Of a DNA stretch of 64,000 nucleotides, positions 3,303 through 17,676 are shown piece after piece (position 1 is the stretch's first letter; each line of letters starts with the position of its first letter). A program made the position numbers and the translations under genes. Location: contig NZ_AVSQ01000015.1 in the NCBI RefSeq assembly GCF_000685395.1, positions 62,001 to 126,000 of the forward strand, written 5' to 3'. Source of the stretch: Candidatus Nitrosotenuis chungbukensis. Its GTDB lineage: Archaea > Thermoproteota > Nitrososphaeria > Nitrososphaerales > Nitrosopumilaceae. The notes beneath the pieces were generated by a model, which did no database searches, had not been told where the DNA came from, and saw only the letters and a list, made by a program, of their open reading frames with translations.

Positions 3303-3974
3303 TTATTCTCGAAGTTTATCTCTTCCACCCTTTGCTGTGCGAAAAACATTCATGCCAAAGTAAAAGTTTTGATACAGTGAATCCAAATACTTGAGATCTT
3401 GCTCGGCCTGGACAACGTCCTCTGCATTTGCGTGGGGATCGTTTTTTAATCGGTCTAGTCTTTGTGTGGTCTCTGCTACTAGTTCTGTTATGCCTGACTC
3501 ATAATTGGACGTCCCGCCAAATTCCGGACTGAGTATGTGTTTTGGCCTGTATGGTGGTACCTGATCTGTTGGGATCTCTACCTTTCTTGAAATTTCTTCT
3601 TGCTCCTCCTCTGTTAGTACTGGCCTTGTTGGGACTAGGTCTTTTTTGGTGTGGAAAAACTCCGGCTCGCCCATCTCGCGTCTAAATATTCGCTCTTGTT
3701 TGCGGTTGTCTGTAAACGAAGCGCCTGCCTCTGCAGCTATTTTTGCCGCCGCCTTTGCCGCTTCTGCCTCGTACTCTTTTTCTGCCTCTGCCGCCGCCTT
3801 TGCCGCCGCCTCTGCAGCCTTTTCATACTCTTTTTCTGCCGCCTCTGCAGCTGCTTTTGATGCAGCTAATCTTGCCGCCGCAGTTCTTGCCGCCGCCTCT
3901 GCTAGTTCCGCCGCTTCTGATGCTGTCCATCCTTGTTTGGTTTTGGGCGGATCCTGAGGCTTTTCGTCAGACAA
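3303..3974 (-). CDS. Ala/Glu-rich coiled-coil protein upstream of hemA
   Basis: This 223-residue protein has no family I recognise. Residues about 18-85 are a long Ala/Glu/Lys helix with repeated EAAAKAAAEAEKEYE-like units, coded by GCC/GCA-rich DNA; the rest is charged and Pro-containing (about 105-160) with a second helical part at the C-terminus. No membrane segment. It starts at a TTG about 24 bases downstream of a TATA-like element (3995-4006), consistent with a leaderless transcript that continues into hemA. A scaffold role is only a guess from the coiled coil. Confidence 0.75.
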   Translation of the reverse strand: MSDEKPQDPPKTKQGWTASEAAELAEAAARTAAARLAASKAAAEAAEKEYEKAAEAAAKAAAEAEKEYEAEAAKAAAKIAAEAGASFTDNRKQERIFRREMGEPEFFHTKKDLVPTRPVLTEEEQEEISRKVEIPTDQVPPYRPKHILSPEFGGTSNYESGITELVAETTQRLDRLKNDPHANAEDVVQAEQDLKYLDSLYQNFYFGMNVFRTAKGGRDKLRE

Positions 3975-6099: not shown

Positions 6100-6744
6100 T
6101 CAAACCTGCTGCGCAAGGCTTGCTGCAAGCTGTTGCAGTGTCCGTGAAAATTCGGCATCATTTTGTTTTCCAGTTGATGACAAAATTTTTGCAATGAGTT
6201 GTTTGTCCGTATCTGTCAATTTTGGCTGCGGGGACTGCGTTTTTTTTATCTTGTTGTCGACCTCATCAATTAAGATCTGGTACTGATCAACTTGTTTTTT
6301 CGTTATCATGATGTGGTTACTCAGTCGTTCAAGGTTTGCCTCTTCGAATCTTTTCTTCTCAACTAGTTCGCCGCGAATTTTCTTCATCTCGTCGACGTGC
6401 GAATCTGCCTTGGGCGTCTGGTTTCCAAACTGCAATAATTCCAACTCTCTGTCAAACTCTTCCTTTTGCGCTTTGATTTTGTTGATTGTTGACATTTGCT
6501 TGCCCATGTGGGTCTTGACCTCCTCAATGTACTGGCCTGTATCTTGTACCGTGCTTGTTAGTTCTTTTGCCATTACCTGTGTGGCCTCAGTCGGGGTGCG
6601 CGGCCTTTGATACTTTGCAAATGTTATGCTGCGGCTTTGAACATCGGTTGCATCCTGTACGTCGATTTTTTCTCCAGCAGAACGTTTTGACTGATCAACG
6701 CTATCCTGCAGACGGTCGTTACGCTCAATGTACTTGCGAGCCAC
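6100..6744 (-). CDS. Coiled-coil protein of unknown function
   Basis: The 214-residue protein is soluble and almost entirely helical: residues about 50-165 are rich in Glu/Lys/Gln with heptad spacing, followed by a short Pro/Gln linker (TQSPQPKL) and a C-terminal helical segment (TDTDKQLIAKILSS ... LQQLAASLAQQ). No catalytic motif or signal peptide is visible. It converges on ribK with only 3 bases between stops. Family not recognised. Confidence 0.75.
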   Translation of the reverse strand: MARKYIERNDRLQDSVDQSKRSAGEKIDVQDATDVQSRSITFAKYQRPRTPTEATQVMAKELTSTVQDTGQYIEEVKTHMGKQMSTINKIKAQKEEFDRELELLQFGNQTPKADSHVDEMKKIRGELVEKKRFEEANLERLSNHIMITKKQVDQYQILIDEVDNKIKKTQSPQPKLTDTDKQLIAKILSSTGKQNDAEFSRTLQQLAASLAQQV

Positions 6745-7489: not shown

Positions 7490-8530
7490 CTATGGGTTAG
7501 GCTCAGGCTCTAGCCCCTTTGCTATTCGCAAGGCATCCACCAGTCCGTCGGCATATCCTATGCTAAGTATTGCCAATTCGTCTTTGCCCTGCTCGAAAAA
7601 CAGCTCTGCGTCCCTGATGTACAGTTCTGCATTCTCAAGTACACTGTGAAACTCTTTTGCATCCTTGTAGTACGGTATGACCTGCTCCAGCGCACGTCGA
7701 ACCATCGGGATGTATTTTCTCATCATCTGCGATGCGATCCTTTCTATCTTTGACGAATTGTCGTCTGGCTTGTCAACGCACTCTGCCAGGGCACTTAGCG
7801 CGTCTGATTCTGTAAAGTGGAGCGTTCCTGGAATCACTATTGTGTGTGGGGGATTTCCAAAATCCATGTTTTTCAAGGAAGCAAAACTCCCAGATGTGAT
7901 CTTCTGGTCCTGCTGGCCAATTCTTGATGCAATTATTCCGTATGTAGAGTCAGAAATCACTTTCCGTACCTGTTCTTTTTCTGAGTCAAGCAGGCTTTGT
8001 ATTGCATCCTTTGGATTCAAAAAGAAATTCTCGTTTTGATTGTACTCCAAGAGAACGACAGTGTGGTTTCCCACCCTTAGGTTCTCATAAATTGTATAGT
8101 ATGCAGTGCTTGATGGAATTCCACTCATGATTGTAACCGTCCTTCCGACTTTGTAGTAGTGGAGGCCGCATTCGCCAACAAGTGATGTTATGGCAGACGA
8201 CGCATGAACCGTATCTGTCTGAATTTTTTCTTGAACTGCCCTGGTTCTTAGCTCGATATGGGTTGTAGCAATGTACGGATCGCCGTATGACACCATGACG
8301 ACGTTTTTTATCTTGGAATTGTCCAGTATCTCTTTTCCGTCTTCTACGAGCCAACGTGGGGCAAACTTGAACTCCCCTCTTGTAATTTCTTTGATTTTTT
8401 GAGATTCATCGTTTTTCATCGGGCTTGTAAACTGTTCAAAATACACGACGTCTGCGTCTGAAATTATTTTTTTTGTCTTGTCTGACAATGAGTCTGGTCC
8501 GCTTATGCCAAGACCTACAAACCAGAGCAT
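7490..8530 (-). CDS. dphB: Diphthine synthase fused to a DUF357 domain
   Basis: DphB methylates the modified histidine of elongation factor 2 using S-adenosylmethionine during diphthamide synthesis. Residues 1-~255 match the tetrapyrrole-methylase fold: MLWFVGLGISGPDSLS at the N-terminus, VVYFEQFTS, VSYGDPYIATTH and the HTIVIPGTLHFTE segment. Residues ~260-346 (ERIASQMMRKYIPMVRRAL ... ILSIGYADGLVDALRI) resemble the archaeal DUF357 helical domain, so this is a fusion longer than the usual ~260 residues. Its ATG overlaps the lysK stop by one base (TAATG), so it is likely translated from the lysine-cluster transcript. Confidence 0.88.
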   Translation of the reverse strand: MLWFVGLGISGPDSLSDKTKKIISDADVVYFEQFTSPMKNDESQKIKEITRGEFKFAPRWLVEDGKEILDNSKIKNVVMVSYGDPYIATTHIELRTRAVQEKIQTDTVHASSAITSLVGECGLHYYKVGRTVTIMSGIPSSTAYYTIYENLRVGNHTVVLLEYNQNENFFLNPKDAIQSLLDSEKEQVRKVISDSTYGIIASRIGQQDQKITSGSFASLKNMDFGNPPHTIVIPGTLHFTESDALSALAECVDKPDDNSSKIERIASQMMRKYIPMVRRALEQVIPYYKDAKEFHSVLENAELYIRDAELFFEQGKDELAILSIGYADGLVDALRIAKGLEPEPNP

Positions 8531-9660
8531 TATGGCGCTTTTTTGTTATCGTGAAGTCTTTTTAGGTGTTGAAGTGTATTTCTCAAGACCTCGATTCCGC
8601 GCAAATACTCGTTCATTGATACTCTCTCGTCTATGGTATGGGACGCATGAGGATCGCCTGGGCCATACGTCACAACAGGAATGTTCCACAACGTTCCAAT
8701 TATGTTCATGTCCCCCGTTCCAGTCTTTCTGATCAGTGCCGGTCTTTTGCGCTCTACGTCCATTACTCCTAGCGTAAATGCCCTGACAAGTGGTGAGTCC
8801 ATAGGGGCCTCAAACGGTTCTGTCTCATCTAATACCGAATAAAACGCGTCGACTCCGAGTCTCTTTGAAATTTCGCTTACCTTTGCTGAGATTTTTTCCC
8901 CAACCATTTTACAGTTCATTGTAACTGGAATTCGAATGTCCATTATTGTGTCGCATTCCTTTGGGGTTACGTTGTGCGAGTCTCCTCCCTTGATTTCAGT
9001 CATCGTTGCGGTGAGAATCATTCCCTTTGACTTTCCCTCCTGGTTTTCCTCTAGCGACTGTTTTAACTCGTACGTGAATTTCATGGACTCTTCAATTGCG
9101 TTTTTTGCAAGCCATGGCGCGCTTGCATGTGCGCTGTCTCCCACGTTTACCTTGAGGTTTATCGCGATTCTTCCCTTGTATGCTATTGTGACCTGTGTTA
9201 TTCCGCTCGGCTCTCCAAATATGGCGTAATCGATATCTAGTTTTTGCTTTGCCAAGTTCTTGATTCCAGTTGCATTTCCTTCTTCGTCTACTGCTCCGAC
9301 AAAAATTATTGTCCCGTTGTTTCTATGAACTGTTGACGCTGCAAGTAGCATTGCCATGAGTGGCGCCTTTGCATCCGACGCCCCTCTGCCGTACAGGTAG
9401 TCTCCCTCCTTTCTTACCTTGACTTTGCCTGGCACCGTATCCATATGTCCGCACAAGAGTACTCTTGGGGAGCCGGAGCCGATTGTAGCAATCAAATTCC
9501 CTACCTCGTCTATGCGCACGTTCTCAAATCCGAGATCGTCGCACTTGTCTGCAAGAAATTCTGCCATCGGCCTCTCCGAAAGCGATGGCGTGTAAAGCCT
9601 GAGTGCCTTCTCTAACAGCTTAATTGAAAATCGCGGCGTTATGGTAAAAGAAGAATCCAT
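8530..9660 (-). CDS. lysK: [LysW]-lysine/ornithine hydrolase
   Basis: LysK is an M20-type zinc amidohydrolase that releases lysine (or ornithine) from the LysW carrier, the last carrier step of the pathway. The 376 residues show the M20 metal ligands: LLCGHMDTVPG (His), YGRGASDAKAPL (Asp), FVGAVDEEGNATG (catalytic and metal Glu) and FGEPSG. The C-terminal HASHTIDERVS matches the final histidine ligand. The lysX start is just upstream (stop 9664, 3-base gap) and dphB starts on its stop codon. Confidence 0.92.
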   Translation of the reverse strand: MDSSFTITPRFSIKLLEKALRLYTPSLSERPMAEFLADKCDDLGFENVRIDEVGNLIATIGSGSPRVLLCGHMDTVPGKVKVRKEGDYLYGRGASDAKAPLMAMLLAASTVHRNNGTIIFVGAVDEEGNATGIKNLAKQKLDIDYAIFGEPSGITQVTIAYKGRIAINLKVNVGDSAHASAPWLAKNAIEESMKFTYELKQSLEENQEGKSKGMILTATMTEIKGGDSHNVTPKECDTIMDIRIPVTMNCKMVGEKISAKVSEISKRLGVDAFYSVLDETEPFEAPMDSPLVRAFTLGVMDVERKRPALIRKTGTGDMNIIGTLWNIPVVTYGPGDPHASHTIDERVSMNEYLRGIEVLRNTLQHLKRLHDNKKAP

Positions 9661-9663
9661 TTT

Positions 9664-10509
9664 TTACTTTCCTGCATTTACTGCGTATTCTAGAATCAGC
9701 CCTGCAATGTCCTTGCCTGTAACCCGCGCGACATTTCTGTATTCAGTGGTGTTGTTAATTTCGTGAACTACTAGCCCCTTTTCTTTGCTTTCCATTAGGT
9801 CGACTCCTACTATTTCGCCCATTACTGCCCTTGTCGCATCGACGCAAATGTCTTCCAGTTCTTTTGTAACCTCGCAAACTTCTGCCGTTCCGCCAAGGTG
9901 CGTGTTCGTCTTCCAGTTTCCCTCAGATGAGTTTCTGTATATGGCACCCACTACCTTGTCGCCGATTACTATTGCCCGTATGTCGCGTGGAGGCCTTTCC
10001 ACAAATTCTTCTAAATAATGAATCTGGTATATTGGATACATTTTCTCCCGTTCTTCTATTATTCCCTCTGCTGATTCTTTGTTGTTTAGCTTTGAGACCA
10101 TCCTGCCCCAGCTCCCTACTGTCGGTTTGATTACCTTGGGATACCCAAGTTTGTCTAGTGCCCCAAGTGCCGCATCTTTTGAAAATGCAACTGTTGCAAA
10201 CGGCGTTGGAATTCCATGCTCTTGCAAAATCATGTGTGTGAACAGCTTGTTTCCGGCGTATATTCCGGTGTGCAACGAGTTTATCACGTTTGCACCCATC
10301 CCCTCAAGTGCTGCCGTCGCATGCAAGTTCCTGTAATAGCTAACGCATCGTTGCAGAACTGTTTTAAATTGTGTTTTTTTGTCTAGTTCTAAAACAAGGT
10401 TTTTACAATCTACCATGTCTACTGTGATGCCTTTTTTCTTTGCAGCTTCTGAGAGGGCTTTTTCTTCAAGACGGATAGTATCGTAAAGGACCGTTATTCC
10501 GGGGCTCAC
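9664..10509 (-). CDS. lysX: LysW-dependent ATP-grasp ligase (LysX type), first copy
   Basis: LysX ligates the amino group of alpha-aminoadipate (or glutamate for ArgX) to the C-terminal glutamate of LysW. The 281 residues show an ATP-grasp fold: KVIKPTVGSWGRMV (ATP-binding), ERPPRDIRAIVIGD and the metal-binding HEINNTTEYRN near the C-terminus. I chose the GTG at 10509, which overlaps the lysW stop as GTGA; a TTG at 10518 would add three residues. Neighbours homocitrate synthase and lysK favour aminoadipate as substrate, but the adjacent LysW ends in Gln, so the partner could be the other LysW. Confidence 0.9.
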   Translation of the reverse strand: MSPGITVLYDTIRLEEKALSEAAKKKGITVDMVDCKNLVLELDKKTQFKTVLQRCVSYYRNLHATAALEGMGANVINSLHTGIYAGNKLFTHMILQEHGIPTPFATVAFSKDAALGALDKLGYPKVIKPTVGSWGRMVSKLNNKESAEGIIEEREKMYPIYQIHYLEEFVERPPRDIRAIVIGDKVVGAIYRNSSEGNWKTNTHLGGTAEVCEVTKELEDICVDATRAVMGEIVGVDLMESKEKGLVVHEINNTTEYRNVARVTGKDIAGLILEYAVNAGK

Positions 10510-10673
10510 TGCCCCCAATCCTCTCCAACGCTTTGGGCCGGCTTTAGCCCAAATCCACTTGAAGATTTGGTTATCTCATAACTTGCACCGCAATCTGGGC
10601 AAGTAACGAGCTCGCCTTCTAGGGCATCATTTGGAACTGTGATATTGGAATCGCATTCAGCGCATTTTGCCAT
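10506..10673 (-). CDS. lysW: LysW carrier protein paralogue ending in Gln
   Basis: This 55-residue zinc-ribbon protein has the two Cys pairs (CAEC at 4-7, CPDC at 25-28), the acidic patch and the C-terminal GEDWG motif of the LysW amino-group carrier. In described LysW proteins the last residue is Glu and its gamma-carboxyl holds aminoadipate or glutamate. Here the last codon is CAG (10509-10511), so the protein ends E-D-W-G-Q. GGAG lies about 8 bases before the ATG, the homocitrate synthase stop is 3 bases upstream, and lysX overlaps the stop (GTGA). The second LysW at 16310 keeps the normal Glu. Confidence 0.9.
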   Translation of the reverse strand: MAKCAECDSNITVPNDALEGELVTCPDCGASYEITKSSSGFGLKPAQSVGEDWGQ

Positions 10674-10676
10674 GTT

Positions 10677-11858
10677 CTACTCCTTGATACTTTTAGAGTC
10701 ATTAATTATCTTTCTTTCAAGCTTGCTATCTAGGGGTATTTCCAAGAGGTCTCCCATTCTGAGGTTTTTAAGGCCTGCAGCAACGGCCTTTGCCTGCTCG
10801 TCATTCATCTCCAGCCCTAATAATGACATTAGATAAGCAGAGCCTGTCTTTCCTGCCAGCTCGCCAAATACTATTCTCCTTCTGTTTCCAACCACTCTTG
10901 GAGGGATCGGCTCGTATGCCGCCGGATTCCTAAGTATTGCCGCCAAATGGGTTCCTGCCTTGTGCTTGTATGCCGAAGCACCCACGAGCGGCTTTGAATC
11001 ATACGGATGGATTCCGGTGTAATCTGCAATCAGTTTTGAAAGATCACTTAGCATGTCTAGCCTAAAGTCGTTTGGAGATCTGTACAGGTATGTCATGGCG
11101 ACTCCGACTTCGGCAAGTGACGGAATCCCCGTTCTCTCGCCAATTCCATCAATTGTTGTGTGAATCTGGTCTGCTCCTGCATCTATTCCAGCAAACGCGT
11201 TTGCCACTGCAAAACCCATATCATTATGACAGTGAACGTCAAGTGGAACTTTGATCTTTTCTTTTACCATTTTTACAAAATTGAACATGCCTTTTGGCCT
11301 CATCACGCCAACCGTGTCTGGCAGGCTAATCCTGTCCACTCCTGCCTCTTCAATTGCCTTGCAAATCTTTAACAAGAATTCCGGATCAGCTCTACTGCCA
11401 TCTTCTACTGTGAATCTCATCTTGAGTCCGTGCGCCTTTGCATATTCTACAGTTTCTACTGCCCGCCTCATTGCCTCCTCTCGCGTGATTCGAAGCTTAT
11501 CCTTCATGTGAATATCTGAAATTCCAAGATACGTTGCAGTCCATTTTGGGTCGCATTTTAGCGCAACATCTACGTCTGACTTGAGGGCTCTTACGTGCGC
11601 AACAATGTCTGCCTTTAGACCCTGCTTGATGATCGTCTTTGTTGCCACAAAGTGGTCTTCTGATACAACTGGTGAAATTTCAATTTGGTCAACTCCAAAA
11701 TAATCAAGCATCCATGCAATCTGAATTCTCTGTTTGTTGGTAAACGTCACCCCTGGGTGCTGCTCTCCCTCCCTTAGGGTGCTGTCAAGTACGTGAATCT
11801 TCCTAGGCTTTTTGTCGTACTCGTTGTACAGGTGTGCGTAGTAATTCGGATCATTCAT
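10677..11858 (-). CDS. lysS: Homocitrate synthase
   Basis: This 393-residue DRE-TIM metallolyase is the first enzyme of the aminoadipate lysine route, condensing 2-oxoglutarate and acetyl-CoA. Visible motifs: DSTLREGEQHPGV (general base Arg and metal Asp), DVHCHNDMGFAVAN (metal HxH) and the GIGERTGI segment. The family also includes isopropylmalate and citramalate synthases; the HPG in the first motif and the position among lysX, lysW and lysK favour homocitrate. It follows a TATA element and starts a unit running through lysW-lysX-lysK-dphB. Confidence 0.88.
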   Translation of the reverse strand: MNDPNYYAHLYNEYDKKPRKIHVLDSTLREGEQHPGVTFTNKQRIQIAWMLDYFGVDQIEISPVVSEDHFVATKTIIKQGLKADIVAHVRALKSDVDVALKCDPKWTATYLGISDIHMKDKLRITREEAMRRAVETVEYAKAHGLKMRFTVEDGSRADPEFLLKICKAIEEAGVDRISLPDTVGVMRPKGMFNFVKMVKEKIKVPLDVHCHNDMGFAVANAFAGIDAGADQIHTTIDGIGERTGIPSLAEVGVAMTYLYRSPNDFRLDMLSDLSKLIADYTGIHPYDSKPLVGASAYKHKAGTHLAAILRNPAAYEPIPPRVVGNRRRIVFGELAGKTGSAYLMSLLGLEMNDEQAKAVAAGLKNLRMGDLLEIPLDSKLERKIINDSKSIKE

Positions 11859-11975: not shown

Positions 11976-12395
11976 CTACGTGACTTCGCGTAAAATGATC
12001 ACAGTGTTGGTATCTGACACTCCTGGAATTTTTCTTAGCGCGTCAATTGAACCGTTGATCTCCATTATGTTTGGGGCCGAAATTATCACCGCGATGTCGT
12101 ACTGCCCCGTGATTTCATAGACTGTCTTTACTCCTTCCAAGCTTGTGAGCTTTGCGGAGACCTTCGACGTGTCCATTGATGACTCTACTGATATCAGTAC
12201 TATTGCCTTTGTCGAGTTTTGCTCGCCCATTTCAACTGTGAATTTTTTAATCACTTTGTTGTCGATTAGATTCTTTACTCTGCGCCTTACTGCAGATTCT
12301 GACAGCTTTAGCTTTTTTCCGATGTCTACAAAAGATTCCCTAGAGTCCTCCTTTAAGATCTTTAATATCTCATCATCAGTCTTGTCCTTGTACAT
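11976..12395 (-). CDS. lysM: Lrp/AsnC-family regulator in the lysine/arginine cluster
   Basis: A 139-residue Lrp/AsnC protein: N-terminal helix-turn-helix (SFVDIGKKLKLSESAVRRRVKNL, within residues 20-45) and a C-terminal RAM ligand-binding domain (VYEITGQYDIAVIISAPNI). In Sulfolobus the regulator LysM of this family controls the lysine cluster in response to lysine, and the location between lysJ/argD and lysS suggests the same role here. AGGAG lies 5 bases before the ATG; its first 20 bases overlap the end of lysJ/argD. Confidence 0.85.
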   Translation of the reverse strand: MYKDKTDDEILKILKEDSRESFVDIGKKLKLSESAVRRRVKNLIDNKVIKKFTVEMGEQNSTKAIVLISVESSMDTSKVSAKLTSLEGVKTVYEITGQYDIAVIISAPNIMEINGSIDALRKIPGVSDTNTVIILREVT

Positions 12396-13566
12396 TTTTT
12401 CTCCTCTCTGTCTCTCTTACCATTAGTCTGTCTAGTACTTCTAATACTTTTATGATATCCTGCTCTGATAATACCAGTGGCGGAAGCAATCTGATGATGT
12501 TTCTGCCAGAATACAGCAGTAGGACTCCTTCTGAGATTCCGTCCATCAGTATGTCCTTTACTTCGAATTTCATCTCTATTCCAATCATCAGTCCCATCCC
12601 TCTTATTTCGCGAATTATGCTGTGTTTGTTTTTGAGCTTTTCAAGTCCGTCTCGGAATATTTTGCCTACCTTGGCCGCATTGTCCACCAGTCCGTCTTCT
12701 GTCAGTGCCTTTAGCGTTGCAATTCCTGCGGCACAAGAGAGAGGATTACCGCCAAACGTGGAAGAATGCTCTCCCTTACTCATCGCAGCCAAAATGTCTG
12801 GCCTGACCAGCGTTGCACTCATTGGGACCCCGCCTGCGATTCCCTTTGCCAGACACATTATGTCTGGTGCCGTATTCCAGTGGTCGCACGCCCACATTTT
12901 ACCAGTTCTTCCAAGGCCTGCTTGAATTTCGTCAAAAATTAGCAGAATTCCGTTCTCATCGCAAAGCTTTCGGACCTCTTGCAAAAATCCTTCTGGCGCT
13001 GGATGGATCCCGCCCTCCCCTTGGATTGGCTCCATGATTATGAATGAGGTGTCCTTGTCTATCTTGGCCCGAAGCGCCTCGATATCTCCAAATGGGGAAA
13101 ACGTTGCCTTTTCTACAAGTGGCATGAATGCCTTTCTGTACTTTGGATTAAATGTAATTGATAATGCTCCCATTGATTTGCCGTGGTATGATCCGTTCAT
13201 TGCAATCATCCCTGACTTGCCGGTGTACTTTCTTGCAAACTTTATTGCCGCCTCTACTGCCTCAGTGCCGCTGTTTCCAAGATGCACTTGGGACAGTTTC
13301 TTTGGAGCTAGTCTGATCAAGTTTTCTAAAAATTCTTCGCGAGTCTTGTTGTATAATGAGCTGTGAACCGTAATGATTTTGTCTATCTGAGCCTTGATTG
13401 CGTCTACTACTCGGGGGTTTCTGTGTCCGACTAGTGCAACCCCGTATCCTCCCATGCAGTCGATGTATTCCTTGCCGTTGATGTCCCAGACTCGCGTTCC
13501 TAGTCCTCTCTCCACTGTAACTGGGAATCTCTGATAAAGACTACCCAAAAAGTCGTCTTCAGTCAT
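12376..13566 (-). CDS. lysJ: Acetylornithine/[LysW]-aminotransferase
   Basis: A class III PLP-dependent aminotransferase of 396 residues that converts the LysW-bound semialdehyde to the amino form; in archaea with one such gene it serves both lysine and arginine. Motifs: GNSGTEAVEAAIKFAR (cofactor phosphate), FDEIQAGLGRTGK (PLP Asp) and CLAKGIAGG (Schiff-base Lys). The ATG overlaps the lysZ/argB stop (ATGA). Only one copy is present in the window, supporting dual function. Confidence 0.9.
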   Translation of the reverse strand: MTEDDFLGSLYQRFPVTVERGLGTRVWDINGKEYIDCMGGYGVALVGHRNPRVVDAIKAQIDKIITVHSSLYNKTREEFLENLIRLAPKKLSQVHLGNSGTEAVEAAIKFARKYTGKSGMIAMNGSYHGKSMGALSITFNPKYRKAFMPLVEKATFSPFGDIEALRAKIDKDTSFIIMEPIQGEGGIHPAPEGFLQEVRKLCDENGILLIFDEIQAGLGRTGKMWACDHWNTAPDIMCLAKGIAGGVPMSATLVRPDILAAMSKGEHSSTFGGNPLSCAAGIATLKALTEDGLVDNAAKVGKIFRDGLEKLKNKHSIIREIRGMGLMIGIEMKFEVKDILMDGISEGVLLLYSGRNIIRLLPPLVLSEQDIIKVLEVLDRLMVRETERRKNVQGQD

Positions 13567-14363
13567 TTACTAATCACCGTGCACCTTTGGTGTGAAATTG
13601 CCGATGATATAGGATTTTCTCGCTGGCCGTTTGCAATTAGTGCCTCTCTTACGCCCATGTCAAGCGCCTCTGTCGCAGCAAGTATTTTCTTTTCCATTCC
13701 AAATCCGACTTTTGGCCTTATTTCCTTGGCTTCTGCATTTGAGAGTTTTTCCACCAGTTTCTCGTTCATGAGCAATCCGTCCACATTGGTCAAAAACAAA
13801 ACCTTGTCGCTCTGTATGCTTCCTGCCACGTTTGCCGCCGCCCTGTCTCCGTCTATGTTCAAAAAGTCAAACTCCTTGGACATGGCAATTGGCGATATCA
13901 CAGGCACGTAGCCCTGGTCTAGCAATAATTTGAGCAATCCTGCATTTACATGAGTCACCTTTCCGGTATATCCTCCATCAATTACCTGCTTTCTTCCCTT
14001 CTCGTTGACTATTACCAGCTTGTCTTTTCTTTCCGCTTCGAATATTTTTCCGTCAATTCCGCTTAGTCCTACTGCGTTTACTCCGTTTTTTTGCAGCATC
14101 TGGACTATCGCCTTGTTTATTTTGCCTGACATTACCATTGTAAAAATCTCCGCAGTCTCCTTGTCAGTATACCTGCTCTTTATTCCGCTTGGGGATACTA
14201 CAAATTTTGGCTCCTTTCCTAACATTTCGCACGTCTTTGTGACTTCTTTTCCGCCACCATGAACCAGTATTACCCCTTCCTGCTCTGCTACTTTTTTGAT
14301 GTCTGGAATTGTTGACGGGTGAAGGTTTTCTACTACGCTTCCGCCAATTTTGATTGTAATCAT
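13563..14363 (-). CDS. lysZ: [LysW]-aminoadipate/glutamate kinase
   Basis: A 266-residue amino acid kinase related to N-acetylglutamate kinase (ArgB). It phosphorylates the side-chain carboxylate of aminoadipate or glutamate while attached to LysW. Visible: ITIKIGGSVVEN at the N-terminus, VHGGGKEV (substrate loop) and LNIDGDRAAANVA. It overlaps lysJ by four bases and begins 4 bases after lysY, so it is translated as part of the operon. The lysine/arginine choice cannot be read from the sequence. Confidence 0.9.
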   Translation of the reverse strand: MITIKIGGSVVENLHPSTIPDIKKVAEQEGVILVHGGGKEVTKTCEMLGKEPKFVVSPSGIKSRYTDKETAEIFTMVMSGKINKAIVQMLQKNGVNAVGLSGIDGKIFEAERKDKLVIVNEKGRKQVIDGGYTGKVTHVNAGLLKLLLDQGYVPVISPIAMSKEFDFLNIDGDRAAANVAGSIQSDKVLFLTNVDGLLMNEKLVEKLSNAEAKEIRPKVGFGMEKKILAATEALDMGVREALIANGQRENPISSAISHQRCTVISK

Positions 14364-14367
14364 TTTT

Positions 14368-15423
14368 TTAAACTGGAGTTAGAGGTGAATATTTCAGACC
14401 TTCCATTTCGTCAAAGCCCGACATGACGTTCATGTTTTGGATGGCAGAGCCTGCTGCGCCCTTCATTAGGTTATCAGAAGCTGATAGTGCAACTAGTCTG
14501 TGGTTGTCTTCATCAATGTCAAAACCAATGTCGCAGAAGTTGGAACCAACTACGAACTTTGGATCTGGGAACTTGTACAGCCCTTTTTTGTCGCGAATTA
14601 ATCTGATGAACCTCTCGTCTTTGTATTGCTCGCGGTACAGCTTCCACAGTTCCAATTCGTTCATGTCTTTTATCATAAATGTGTGATTTGTGCAAAGAAT
14701 TCCTCTGACTATGTCTACTGCATGGGGACTCATTGATATGCTGATATGCTTTCCTGCAATCTCGCTTAGCTCTTGTTCTATTTCGCCGGTGTGCCTGTGC
14801 TTTGCAGGCTTGTATGGCCTGATGACTCCTGATCTCATTGCGTGGTGCGTTCCGGCAACACTTCCTGCGCCTGCACCTGATGAGCCGATTTTGGAATCAA
14901 CTACAATGTGCTCTGTATCGATTACGTTGTTTTTGATCAGTGGAACTAGGGCAAGCATTGAGGTTACTGCCATGCATCCTGGGCATGATACCAGCTGCGC
15001 GTTTCTGATTTTATCCCTGTGCAGTTCTGGAACGCCAAACACTGATTTTGCCAAATACTCTGGGTGCGGGTGTTCCCATCCATACCATTTTCCATATGCC
15101 TCCGGCTTGTGTAGTCTGTAATCTGCAGAAAGGTCTACTACTTTGAGGCCTCTGTCGTAGAGCGCTTTTACTATTTCAGTTGCAGTTCCGTGTGGGACTG
15201 CGGTAAATACGAGATCGCACTTGTCTGACATTTTATCATAATCTAGCTCAGAAAACGTCATTTCTGTAAATCCTTTAAGCGATGGCTGAATCCTGTGTAG
15301 GTATTCTCCTACGTGCTGCCTTGACGTGACCATCGTGATCTCGACTTTGGGGTGAGATACCAAAAGGCGTAGCATTTCTCCGCCTACAAACCCTGACGCT
15401 CCAACTACTCCTACTCTTAACAT
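14368..15423 (-). CDS. lysY: [LysW]-aminoadipyl/glutamyl phosphate reductase
   Basis: ArgC-family NADPH-dependent reductase of 351 residues that reduces the LysW-bound acyl phosphate to the semialdehyde. It shows the Rossmann start VGVVGASGFVGGEMLRLL, the catalytic cysteine in VSCPGCMAVTSM (about residue 148) and a conserved histidine segment (SPHAVDIVRG). It lies between the second lysX/argX (29-base gap) and lysZ (4-base gap). Likely bifunctional for lysine and arginine. Confidence 0.91.
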   Translation of the reverse strand: MLRVGVVGASGFVGGEMLRLLVSHPKVEITMVTSRQHVGEYLHRIQPSLKGFTEMTFSELDYDKMSDKCDLVFTAVPHGTATEIVKALYDRGLKVVDLSADYRLHKPEAYGKWYGWEHPHPEYLAKSVFGVPELHRDKIRNAQLVSCPGCMAVTSMLALVPLIKNNVIDTEHIVVDSKIGSSGAGAGSVAGTHHAMRSGVIRPYKPAKHRHTGEIEQELSEIAGKHISISMSPHAVDIVRGILCTNHTFMIKDMNELELWKLYREQYKDERFIRLIRDKKGLYKFPDPKFVVGSNFCDIGFDIDEDNHRLVALSASDNLMKGAAGSAIQNMNVMSGFDEMEGLKYSPLTPV

Positions 15424-15451: not shown

Positions 15452-16309
15452 TTATTTCCTAACGTGGTTTAGGGCAAAATTAATCATTTCTTGAGGGATG
15501 TTTTTTTTGGCAACCCTTGCAAGTCCCTTGAACTCGACGGTATTATTCACTTCGTGTATTACGAGCCCGCGTTTTTCGTCTTCCATTAGATCGATTCCTA
15601 AAATTCCTCCGCCGACTGCCCCTGACGCCTTGATGCAGATGTCTTCCATCTCCTTTGTGATCTCACATATTTCTGGATCGCCTCCAAGTGCGATATTTGT
15701 CTTAAAGTCGCCTTGCGACTTTCTGTACATTGCCGCAATTACTTGGTTCCCTACCGTTATTGCCCGGATGTCGCGGGGTGGGCGGTTTATCACTTCCTGT
15801 AAATAATAAATTCTGTCGTGCGAGCCGTCTGCAATGTCGCGCATTTCTATTATTGCCTCCGTCGTGTCTTTGTCTCGTAACGGCAAGATTCCCCTTCCCC
15901 AGCTTCCTATGACTGGCTTTATCACGATCGGGAAGCCGACTTTGTTGATTAGGTTGGCCGCCTCTTCTGACGAGAATGCAAAATAGGTCTTTGGTGTTGG
16001 GACTCCGTGTTTTTTTAATAATAGCGAGGTCACCAGCTTATTTCCGCACTTGTCTGCCACGTCGTATTTGTTGATTACTGGAACGTCTAGGAACTCTAGA
16101 CATGCAGTAAAGTGCAAGCCTCTAAAATAGCTCACACACCTTTCTAGGACGACGTCGCCAAAATCAATATCTCCTTTTTTGCTCTCTGTACTGATTTGGC
16201 TAGTCTTTGCATCCACTACTATTGTATCGTGACCCATCTTTGATGCCTGCTCTTGAAGCATCTTCTCCTCCAGTCTGAGTCTATCAAATACGATACAAAT
16301 CTTGGACAA
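15452..16309 (-). CDS. argX: LysW-dependent ATP-grasp ligase (LysX/ArgX type), second copy
   Basis: A 285-residue paralogue of the lysX at 9664. It has the ATP-grasp elements (VIKPVIGSWGRGIL, NRPPRDIRAITVGN, HEVNNTVEFKG). Its TTG start directly follows the lysW stop (TAG-TTG). Placement behind argG and next to a LysW with the normal C-terminal Glu suggests this is ArgX, adding glutamate to LysW for arginine synthesis, whereas the other copy would be LysX. The assignment is inference from context; substrate-deciding residues were not compared. Confidence 0.85.
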   Translation of the reverse strand: MSKICIVFDRLRLEEKMLQEQASKMGHDTIVVDAKTSQISTESKKGDIDFGDVVLERCVSYFRGLHFTACLEFLDVPVINKYDVADKCGNKLVTSLLLKKHGVPTPKTYFAFSSEEAANLINKVGFPIVIKPVIGSWGRGILPLRDKDTTEAIIEMRDIADGSHDRIYYLQEVINRPPRDIRAITVGNQVIAAMYRKSQGDFKTNIALGGDPEICEITKEMEDICIKASGAVGGGILGIDLMEDEKRGLVIHEVNNTVEFKGLARVAKKNIPQEMINFALNHVRK

Positions 16310-16477
16310 CTACTCTCCCCAGTCTTCTCCGACGCTTTCTGCTGGTTTTAGTTCCACGTTTGAGCCGTCTTTCTTTGCAATTTCAAAGTCGGCTCCGCAT
16401 TCTGGACATGAGACTAACTCCCCTACAGCTGCATCGTCTGGGATGTTTATTTTTGCGTCACATTCTGAACAATTCAT
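16310..16477 (-). CDS. lysW: LysW amino-group carrier protein with C-terminal Glu
   Basis: A 55-residue zinc-ribbon carrier: CSEC and CPEC pairs, acidic surface and the canonical C-terminal GEDWGE, whose last Glu carries aminoadipate or glutamate through its gamma-carboxyl. I chose the ATG at 16477, which has GGTGA about 11 bases upstream; a GTG at 16492 overlapping the argG stop (GTGA) would add MKKII. It sits between argG and argX. Confidence 0.9.
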   Translation of the reverse strand: MNCSECDAKINIPDDAAVGELVSCPECGADFEIAKKDGSNVELKPAESVGEDWGE

Positions 16478-16488
16478 TATGATTTTTT

Positions 16489-17676
16489 TCACCTCTTGTT
16501 TAGTAATTTATTAGCTTCTGTTGTCTGCAATCCCCAGAGTTCAACAAAGCCTGTCGCCTTTCTTTGATCAAATGCCGATCCTTTTCCGTAGGTGGCGATG
16601 TCGTGACTGTATAGCGAATGCTTTGACTTTCGTCCAACTACGCGAAACGCGCCCTTGTACAGTTTGAGTCGAACCGTACCAGTTACGGTTTTCTGCGACT
16701 CGTCGATGAACTTGTCCAAGTCTCGCTTTAGCGGATCTTGCCAAAGCCCAGAGTATGCCAAAAATGCCCACTCTGAGTCAACCATCTCCTTGAACTTGGT
16801 CTCATGCTTTGTATGCACCATTTTTTCAAGGTCTGCATGTGCCTCTATGATGCACAACGCCGCTGGGGTCTCGTACACTTCGCGGGATTTTATTCCCACC
16901 ACTCTGTCTTCTATGTGATCTATTATTCCAACTCCGTAATCTCCTGCAACTTTGTTTGTGTATTCGATTAGTTTGATCGGGTTCATTCTTTTTTTGTCAA
17001 CTGCCACCGGGACTCCATTTTCAAATTCTATTTCCAAATATCTGGGCTTGTCAGGAAGATTCTTTGTCTTTACCCAGATGAATGCGTCATCTGGTGGCTC
17101 ACTGTACGGGTCCTCAAGATGCCCTCCCTCGATTGCCCTGCCCCACAAGTTCTGATCAATGCTGAATTTCTTTGATACTGAGTCAATTGATATCCCATGC
17201 CTTTCTGCAAATGCAAGTTCTGTAGTTCTATCCAAATTTAGGTCGCGAATCGGCGCAATTATGGGCAAGTTGGAGCCTGAGCGCAGCGTTATGTCGAATC
17301 TGACTTGGTCGTTTCCTTTTCCAGTACACCCATGTGCTAATGCGTCGACTTTTTCCTTTTTTGCAATGTCTACTACTTTCTGCGCTATTAGCGGTCTTGC
17401 CAAGGCTGTTGCCAGGCAGTATTTTTTTTGATATAGCGCATTTGCTTTGATTGCCGGATGGATAAATTTTTGTACAAACTCTAATTTTGCATCTATGTTG
17501 TAATGTCGAAGAACGCCGAGCTTTTTTGCCTTTGCCGCAATTTTCTTTTGGTCGCTTCCCTCCCCAACGTCAACTGTGACTGTAATTACATCCATGTTGT
17601 GTTTTTCTTGTAAATATTTTATGACAACTGAAGTATCTAATCCGCCAGAAAAAGCAAGTACTGCTTTTTGTTTCAT
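16489..17676 (-). CDS. argG: Argininosuccinate synthase
   Basis: ArgG joins citrulline and aspartate with ATP, the penultimate step of arginine synthesis. The 395 residues match the family: AFSGGLDTSVVIKYL (PP-loop), HGCTGKGNDQVRFD and the EGGHLEDPYSEPPDD region. It is the first gene of the arginine half of the cluster. argH and argF are not in the window. It is divergent from the ABC transporter with about 158 bases between the starts. Confidence 0.96.
   Translation of the reverse strand: MKQKAVLAFSGGLDTSVVIKYLQEKHNMDVITVTVDVGEGSDQKKIAAKAKKLGVLRHYNIDAKLEFVQKFIHPAIKANALYQKKYCLATALARPLIAQKVVDIAKKEKVDALAHGCTGKGNDQVRFDITLRSGSNLPIIAPIRDLNLDRTTELAFAERHGISIDSVSKKFSIDQNLWGRAIEGGHLEDPYSEPPDDAFIWVKTKNLPDKPRYLEIEFENGVPVAVDKKRMNPIKLIEYTNKVAGDYGVGIIDHIEDRVVGIKSREVYETPAALCIIEAHADLEKMVHTKHETKFKEMVDSEWAFLAYSGLWQDPLKRDLDKFIDESQKTVTGTVRLKLYKGAFRVVGRKSKHSLYSHDIATYGKGSAFDQRKATGFVELWGLQTTEANKLLNKR

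Follow-up and report, generated by a model that had tools for sequence, protein, structure and literature searches.

Attachment of the substrate to the γ-carboxyl group of a C-terminal Glu is the textbook rule for the carrier protein LysW. The locus described here, from Candidatus Nitrosotenuis chungbukensis, raises the question of how a carrier can function when this Glu is not encoded, since one of its two LysW genes, here called lysW-Q, specifies a protein ending in Gln. Ammonia oxidizers of marine and soil habitats, as well as Ignicoccus hospitalis, are among the many archaea, abundant and of experimental importance, whose only carrier, or that of the lysine side, lacks an encoded γ-carboxyl group. 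This would mean either that a maturation step has been overlooked in an essential synthesis of amino acids or that loading follows a different chemistry. No mention of a Gln-ending LysW or of an EDWGQ terminus was found in the open literature, to which the search was confined, subscription papers being outside its scope. A metabolic model of Nitrosopumilus maritimus assumes LysW-mediated routes, and no mention of the terminus was found there (PMC6038301).

The lysW-Q gene and its operon

At 10506–10511 of the window, i.e. the whole stretch of 64,000 nucleotides that was analysed, the plus strand reads TCACTG, which gives CAG (Gln, 10509–10511) followed by TGA (10506–10508) on the minus strand. 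Re-reading of the window sequence upheld the first-pass annotation, according to which the first LysW ends in Gln and the second in Glu. The first LysW is the 55-residue open reading frame at 10506–10673 (minus strand), with the translation MAKCAECDSNITVPNDALEGELVTCPDCGASYEITKSSSGFGLKPAQSVGEDWGQ. Read along the minus strand, the genes follow the order argG, lysW-E, argX, argC, argB, argD, LysM-type Lrp regulator, HCS-like gene, lysW-Q, lysX, lysK. Their coordinates, and that of the terminal codon, are as follows.

8530..9660, minus strand: lysK, M20 metallohydrolase freeing the product from LysW, proposed deamidase (PDB 5xoy, PF01546)
9664..10509, minus strand: lysX, ATP-grasp [LysW] ligase of the lysine side (TIGR02144, 317.5 bits, cut-off 275.6; PDB 3vpd, 5k2m)
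10506..10673, stop included, minus strand: lysW-Q, LysW-family carrier of 55 residues ending in EDWGQ (NF041070, 88.9 bits, cut-off 75; PF21344, 50.4 bits, cut-off 27)
10509..10511, minus strand: CAG codon of the C-terminal Gln, at the position of the substrate-bearing Glu in characterized LysW
10677..11858, minus strand: homocitrate synthase-like gene (HCS/LysS), for the entry step of the aminoadipate route (TIGR02146, 380 bits, below the cut-off of 413.6)
11976..12395, minus strand: LysM-type Lrp regulator, flanked by the argD and HCS genes (NF040947, 186 bits, cut-off 180)
12376..13566, minus strand: argD/lysJ aminotransferase, common to both branches (TIGR00707, above cut-off)
13563..14363, minus strand: argB/lysZ [LysW]-aminoadipate/glutamate kinase (NF010662, 301 bits, cut-off 194)
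14368..15423, minus strand: argC/lysY reductase (TIGR01850, 414.6 bits, cut-off 233.6)
15452..16309, minus strand: argX, [LysW]-glutamate ligase paralogue of the arginine side, upstream of argC (TIGR02144, 301.7 bits; specificity motif with Gly, EFKGL)
16310..16477, minus strand: lysW-E, second LysW, ending in VGEDWGE (NF041070, 92.4 bits)
16489..17676, minus strand: argG, upstream of lysW-E, named by position and sequence; it adjoins the arginine-side LysW in related genomes

The match of the first LysW to NF041070 ('carrier LysW/ArgW') is full-length and lies above the curated cut-off. Family score, zinc-ribbon, EDWG motif and a LysX bearing GSWGR are all found for lysW-Q; a C-terminal Glu codon is not, its place being taken by CAG. 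By homology, lysW-Q is a LysW; since the defining Glu is not encoded, we class it as a family variant instead of a standard carrier. The two LysW genes of the window are the only ones in the genome, the third search match having an E value of 3.48.

The GTG start codon of lysX shares bases with the lysW stop codon (GTGA). Window LysX has kept the GSWGR motif, which recognizes the LysW terminus and is invariant in an alignment of ten LysX sequences. We infer its lysine specificity from synteny with the HCS-like gene, located directly upstream of lysW-Q, and from Asn in the specificity motif, which is of the Asn-Thr type in SaLysX as against Gly-Phe in SaArgX (PMC10433800). For the HCS-like protein, specificity for homocitrate as opposed to isopropylmalate is likewise suggested by context. 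The best match of LysK in the PDB is 5xoy, '[LysW]-lysine hydrolase' (E value of 9e-54), with conserved metal and catalytic residues; it belongs to the M20 family (PF01546), and its score of 277.3 bits is below the NF003367 equivalog cut-off of 363. Elsewhere in the window, two minus-strand open reading frames of 214 (6100–6744) and 223 residues (3303–3974) have no Pfam match, the latter being rich in Ala, Glu and Lys.

Distribution of the Gln terminus

An exact-pattern scan of the class found EDWGQ followed by a stop codon in 263 of 400 genomes, corresponding to 168 of the 220 good-quality genomes and 35 of 82 genera; the reversed control pattern had no match in the same 400 genomes. The terminus is also present in single-contig genomes and in the isolate Nitrosotalea devanaterra (LN890280.1, L156). 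By the same exact pattern, families f1, f2 and f3 have it in nearly every genome, and f4 to f24 lack it altogether. Named loci (Nitrosotalea, Nitrososphaera, Nitrosocosmicus and Nitrosopolaris) identify f1, f2 and f3 as ammonia oxidizers. The first-pass annotation had pointed out that a local error would be indicated if the homologues beside lysX all ended in Glu. Such is not the case, the Gln beside lysX being conserved across ammonia-oxidizing archaea. Indeed, conservation in hundreds of genomes, together with a terminus confined to Glu and Gln, rules out sequencing error or local decay.

All genomes sampled belong to one phylum. The phylum scan revealed more EDWGQ cases outside the class, and LysW identity was confirmed by homology in f32, f37, f55 and f58; the match in f31 proved to be a different gene. 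Pattern matches are not all LysW, as the second site in G070 reads through TGG and a match in G427 is not the LysW gene; owing to such extra matches, key genomes were checked by homology.

The description of the Gln form as the paralogue beside lysX holds in the window but is too narrow, since elsewhere the LysW that ends in Gln may be that of the argX side, both copies or the only one. In f1, the window included, the lysX-side copy usually ends in Gln and the argX-side copy in Glu, and in f3 all combinations are found (Q/E, E/Q, Q/Q and E/E). Among distinct LysX/ArgX partners, Gln outnumbers Glu on the lysine side (93 versus 29) and Glu outnumbers Gln on the arginine side (65 versus 23), in a sample that is uneven because some loci were fetched via the Gln pattern. 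In a small number of f1 g6 genomes both copies of LysW end in Glu, through one reversion or several (L078, L083, L220, L284 and others; G078, G220, G260, G293, G307).

Constraint on the last residue

With a profile from which the terminal residue had been left out, 225 distinct LysW were found in the fetched loci. The last residue is Gln in 123 and Glu in 102, with no other residue, and EDWG precedes it in all 225; the zinc-ribbon pattern CxxC...[C/H]xxC is present in every one of the 123 Gln-type and 102 Glu-type proteins. Apparent EDWGD, EDWGY and EDWGV termini (G240, G261, G275) belong to sequences that, once fetched, turned out not to be LysW. Gln is encoded by both CAG and CAA, and Glu by both GAG and GAA. 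The occurrence of both Gln codons argues for selection at the level of the protein. Lys, His, Arg, Pro, Leu, Ala, Asp, Gly and Val are all one base away and all absent; since loss of function would admit Lys, His, Arg, Pro or Leu, the function appears to have been kept. The overlap by which CAGTGA supplies the GTG start of lysX was considered as the cause of the Gln and rejected, as GAGTGA overlaps equally; the termini CAGTAA, CAATAA and CAATAG contradict it as well.

That the terminal residue is needed follows from the E54A substitution in Natrinema ArgW, which abolishes function and leads to arginine auxotrophy (PMC10433800). This mutant also bears on the idea that the substrate might be attached, in the manner of RimK, to the α-carboxyl group of the terminal Gln, in which case no deamidation would be needed. 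The α-carboxyl group is indeed free in such a protein, and window LysX also falls in the RimK α-glutamate ligase family (TIGR00768, PF08443). However, the E54A protein retains its α-carboxyl group and is dead (PMC10433800), any residue would offer this group and yet only Glu and Gln occur, and LysK would have a different bond to cleave. We therefore regard attachment to the α-carboxyl group as very unlikely.

Mapping on the LysX/ArgX tree reveals at least 13 switches of the terminus between Gln and Glu and gives 10 supported pairs that are independent. No LysX column covaries with the switch, the best one agreeing in about 4 of 10 independent pairs, nor does any LysK column, with agreement in about 3 of 7 pairs at best. 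Compensation by a substitution in either the ligase or LysK was rejected on these grounds. As no column follows the switch, the existing machinery apparently copes with either residue.

Genomes with only Gln-ending LysW

Several lineages do not possess any LysW ending in Glu. Genomes of the Nitrosocosmicus type (g24: G070, G092, G099, each a single contig) have one LysW, ending in Gln, together with both ArgX and LysX, and L169, L189 and L196 are named loci of this arrangement; here two ligases seem to be served by one LysW. In g28 of Nitrososphaera (G108 and G131, which we take to be N. gargensis and N. viennensis), both LysW end in Gln, and in f1 g7 (G037, G141) every LysW site has Gln and none Glu. 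A single LysW, with Gln, is found in I. hospitalis (G517), in the single-contig genome G414 and in eight f32 genomes; in f32, f37 and f55 the sole LysW of the genome ends in Gln.

Some gene losses may be recorded beside these cases. In loci of the Nitrosocosmicus type (L241, L244, L245, L169, L189, L196), the gap between argG and argX contains no arginine-side LysW, and argX-argC-argB-argD is kept. In g41 (L183, L172, L246), argX and the arginine-side LysW are both missing; G201, of the same group, has one LysW (Gln) and one LysX, which suggests a bifunctional ligase or arginine auxotrophy.

Ignicoccus hospitalis is an autotroph that makes lysine from 2-oxoglutarate via the aminoadipate pathway (PMC2614490), N. 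franklandus, a chemolithoautotroph, was obtained using an inorganic medium (PMC4830249), and N. viennensis is cultivated in freshwater medium of defined composition that contains ammonium, bicarbonate and pyruvate (PMC9978112). LysA of the diaminopimelate (DAP) pathway had no match in G000, G037, G141, G517 and the f37 and f32 genomes tested, in a search whose control was positive in 13 of 14 genomes. A DAP route that would make LysW dispensable was thus rejected for the non-f3 genomes tested; in the absence of LysA, their lysine synthesis needs LysW. Genomes of f3 have a LysA relative scoring below the curated cut-off, so that the carrier argument there rests on arginine, for which ArgX-ArgC-ArgB-ArgD are kept. 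This LysA-like decarboxylase is present in Nitrososphaeraceae (G131:C1:1977712-1978971 and other f3 genomes) and absent from Nitrosopumilaceae.

The two forms of LysW appear to replace each other, as losses have been reciprocal: Nitrosocosmicus has lost the arginine-side copy and keeps LysW-Q with ArgX, and G132, from which the lysine-side LysW is gone, keeps one LysW-E with both LysX and ArgX. In the latter genome (L231, 4730–6984), HCS continues as a GC-rich tail of low complexity, immediately ahead of lysX; the loss of the lysine-side LysW may be an assembly artefact.

Since several lineages are devoid of any Glu-ending LysW, it is strongly supported by the sequences that LysW-Q is a working carrier. 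The first-pass annotation had proposed that the lysine operon depends on the other LysW, or that the Gln form has a non-carrier role; as general explanations, both founder on these same lineages. LysW-Q could be conceived as a scaffold, regulator or decoy, with carrying left to the other LysW, in so far as LysW-E is also present in the genome of the window and in most Nitrosopumilaceae. However, genomes without any LysW-E contradict this idea, as do a terminus limited to Glu and Gln, an EDWG motif and a zinc-ribbon Cys/His pattern that are both fully conserved, and the presence of Gln on the argX side too; a non-carrier role is highly improbable. It is hardly more to be expected that translation errors provide a small fraction of carrier ending in Glu, through tRNA-Gln charged with Glu before amidation, and that recycling makes this fraction sufficient. 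Indirect charging of tRNA-Gln is standard in archaea, and a low level of a catalytic carrier may be enough, but misacylated Glu-tRNA is normally barred from the ribosome, and Gln would be strongly deleterious, yet it is fixed across hundreds of genomes. Accordingly, because some genomes have no other LysW copy, the Gln must either undergo conversion or be used as it is, and an enzyme that the pathway already possesses is the probable agent.

Proposed maturation of LysW-Q

In its normal reaction, LysK cleaves the γ-amide bond between the terminal residue of LysW and the finished lysine or ornithine. The terminal position is thus already acted on by two pathway enzymes, LysX/ArgX forming the γ-amide and LysK hydrolysing it. 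For LysW-Q to be loaded, its Gln amide has to be made available as an acyl group. In the model that we propose, LysW-Q would be translated as a pro-form, and the side-chain amide of its terminal Gln would be hydrolysed post-translationally to give the γ-carboxylate of Glu, to which LysX (or ArgX) would then join aminoadipate (or glutamate) as usual. The likeliest deamidase would be LysK, with ammonia leaving in place of the amino acid. One deamidation per carrier molecule would suffice, the carrier cycling as Glu afterwards. Given that LysK accompanies every LysW pathway, Glu and Gln termini would be nearly interchangeable, which would explain the repeated switching. We infer the deamidation and the part of LysK in it from comparative sequence data, and give an even chance to the model as a whole, i.e. 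a working pro-carrier deamidated to Glu, most likely by LysK.

Homologues of LysK, with conserved catalytic residues, were found in 27 of 27 genomes tested. The unknown deamidase that the first-pass annotation had envisaged is not required, since LysK, encoded two genes downstream and already hydrolysing a γ-amide at this position, is the simplest candidate. As Gln arose repeatedly in distant lineages, an activity borne by the pathway is also more economical than a pre-existing separate enzyme. Nevertheless, M20 hydrolases normally bind the leaving amino acid, and a primary amide may be a poor substrate. The best LysK match of I. hospitalis is distant (31% identity, E value of 3e-32) and does not adjoin lysW, which also counts against LysK. 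Finally, the near-fixation in Nitrosopumilaceae of Gln on the lysX side and Glu on the argX side would not be expected if the two residues were fully equivalent.

A separate, dedicated deamidase could instead turn LysW-Q into LysW-E ahead of loading, just as Dop, as a separate enzyme, makes PupE from PupQ (PMC8599861). The family screen covered only four other proteins of the window, which leaves room for such an enzyme; in these four genes, downstream of lysK and beyond, no deamidase family was found. A Dop/PafA homologue was rejected for this role: the Pup_ligase family (PF03136) had no match at E ≤ 1 in any of 12 genomes, Gln-only ones included, with a search control over 14 known genomes that gave a match in three, one of them above the cut-off. 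Moreover, at least 13 switches in several families of one phylum would need the enzyme to have been present beforehand in all of them. A dedicated deamidase is, in our opinion, rather improbable; the lack of Dop/PafA homologues and of covariation in LysX or LysK fits a built-in activity.

The main rival to LysK is amide exchange mediated by LysX. LysX/ArgX might themselves handle Gln if, by reversal of ATP-grasp chemistry with ADP and phosphate, they activated the amide and expelled ammonia, water or the amino group of the substrate taking its place, in the manner of Dop and glutamine synthetase; a separate deamidase would then be superfluous. The same chemistry is performed by Dop in the Pup system (PMC8599861), every Gln genome inspected has LysX/ArgX beside or near LysW, and repeated independent gains would be explained without a new gene. 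On the other hand, ATP-grasp ligases are not homologous to Dop or glutamine synthetase, every LysX would have to possess the activity in latent form, as no column changes with Gln, and Nitrosocosmicus would need it in ArgX as well as in LysX. We consider this mechanism unlikely. Taken broadly, we think it rather probable that an undescribed, intrinsic Gln-to-Glu maturation is carried out by LysK or LysX, and that LysW-Gln, in Ignicoccus and further lineages as well as in ammonia-oxidizing archaea, is a convergent and recurrent metabolic counterpart of Pup-Gln. The PupQ/PupE logic would then have a second instance, unrelated to the first. The Gln-only genomes, some of them from cultured strains, render the question directly testable.

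Comparison with known systems

Like the LysW/ArgW proteins of Thermus, Sulfolobus, Thermococcus and Natrinema, LysW-Q has the zinc-ribbon and EDWG and is encoded in an operon with LysX/ArgX, LysZ/Y/J and LysK. It differs from them by its encoded C-terminal Gln, the known carriers having a Glu whose γ-carboxyl group bears the substrate. Window LysK is homologous to the hydrolase of PDB 5xoy and retains the metal and catalytic residues, whereas deamidation of a primary amide would be a new activity, proposed here for the window enzyme.

The parallel with Pup-Gln, already drawn in the first-pass annotation, is the best available. Pup, too, is a small carrier-like protein with an encoded C-terminal Gln, its orthologues ending in Glu or Gln; its linkage is via the γ-carboxyl group of the last residue, and an enzyme cleaves the γ-amide at the same residue (PMC8599861). 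The interchange of Gln and Glu in LysW resembles the behaviour of PupQ and PupE, as an analogy and not as membership of one family. In contrast to this likeness, LysW and Pup have no sequence relation, LysX is an ATP-grasp enzyme and LysK an M20 metallohydrolase, neither of them glutamine synthetase-like, and the cargo of LysW is a metabolite while that of Pup is a protein. In the Pup system, one enzyme, Dop, both takes the amide off PupQ and cleaves Pup conjugates (PMC8599861); by analogy, LysK would be its functional counterpart.
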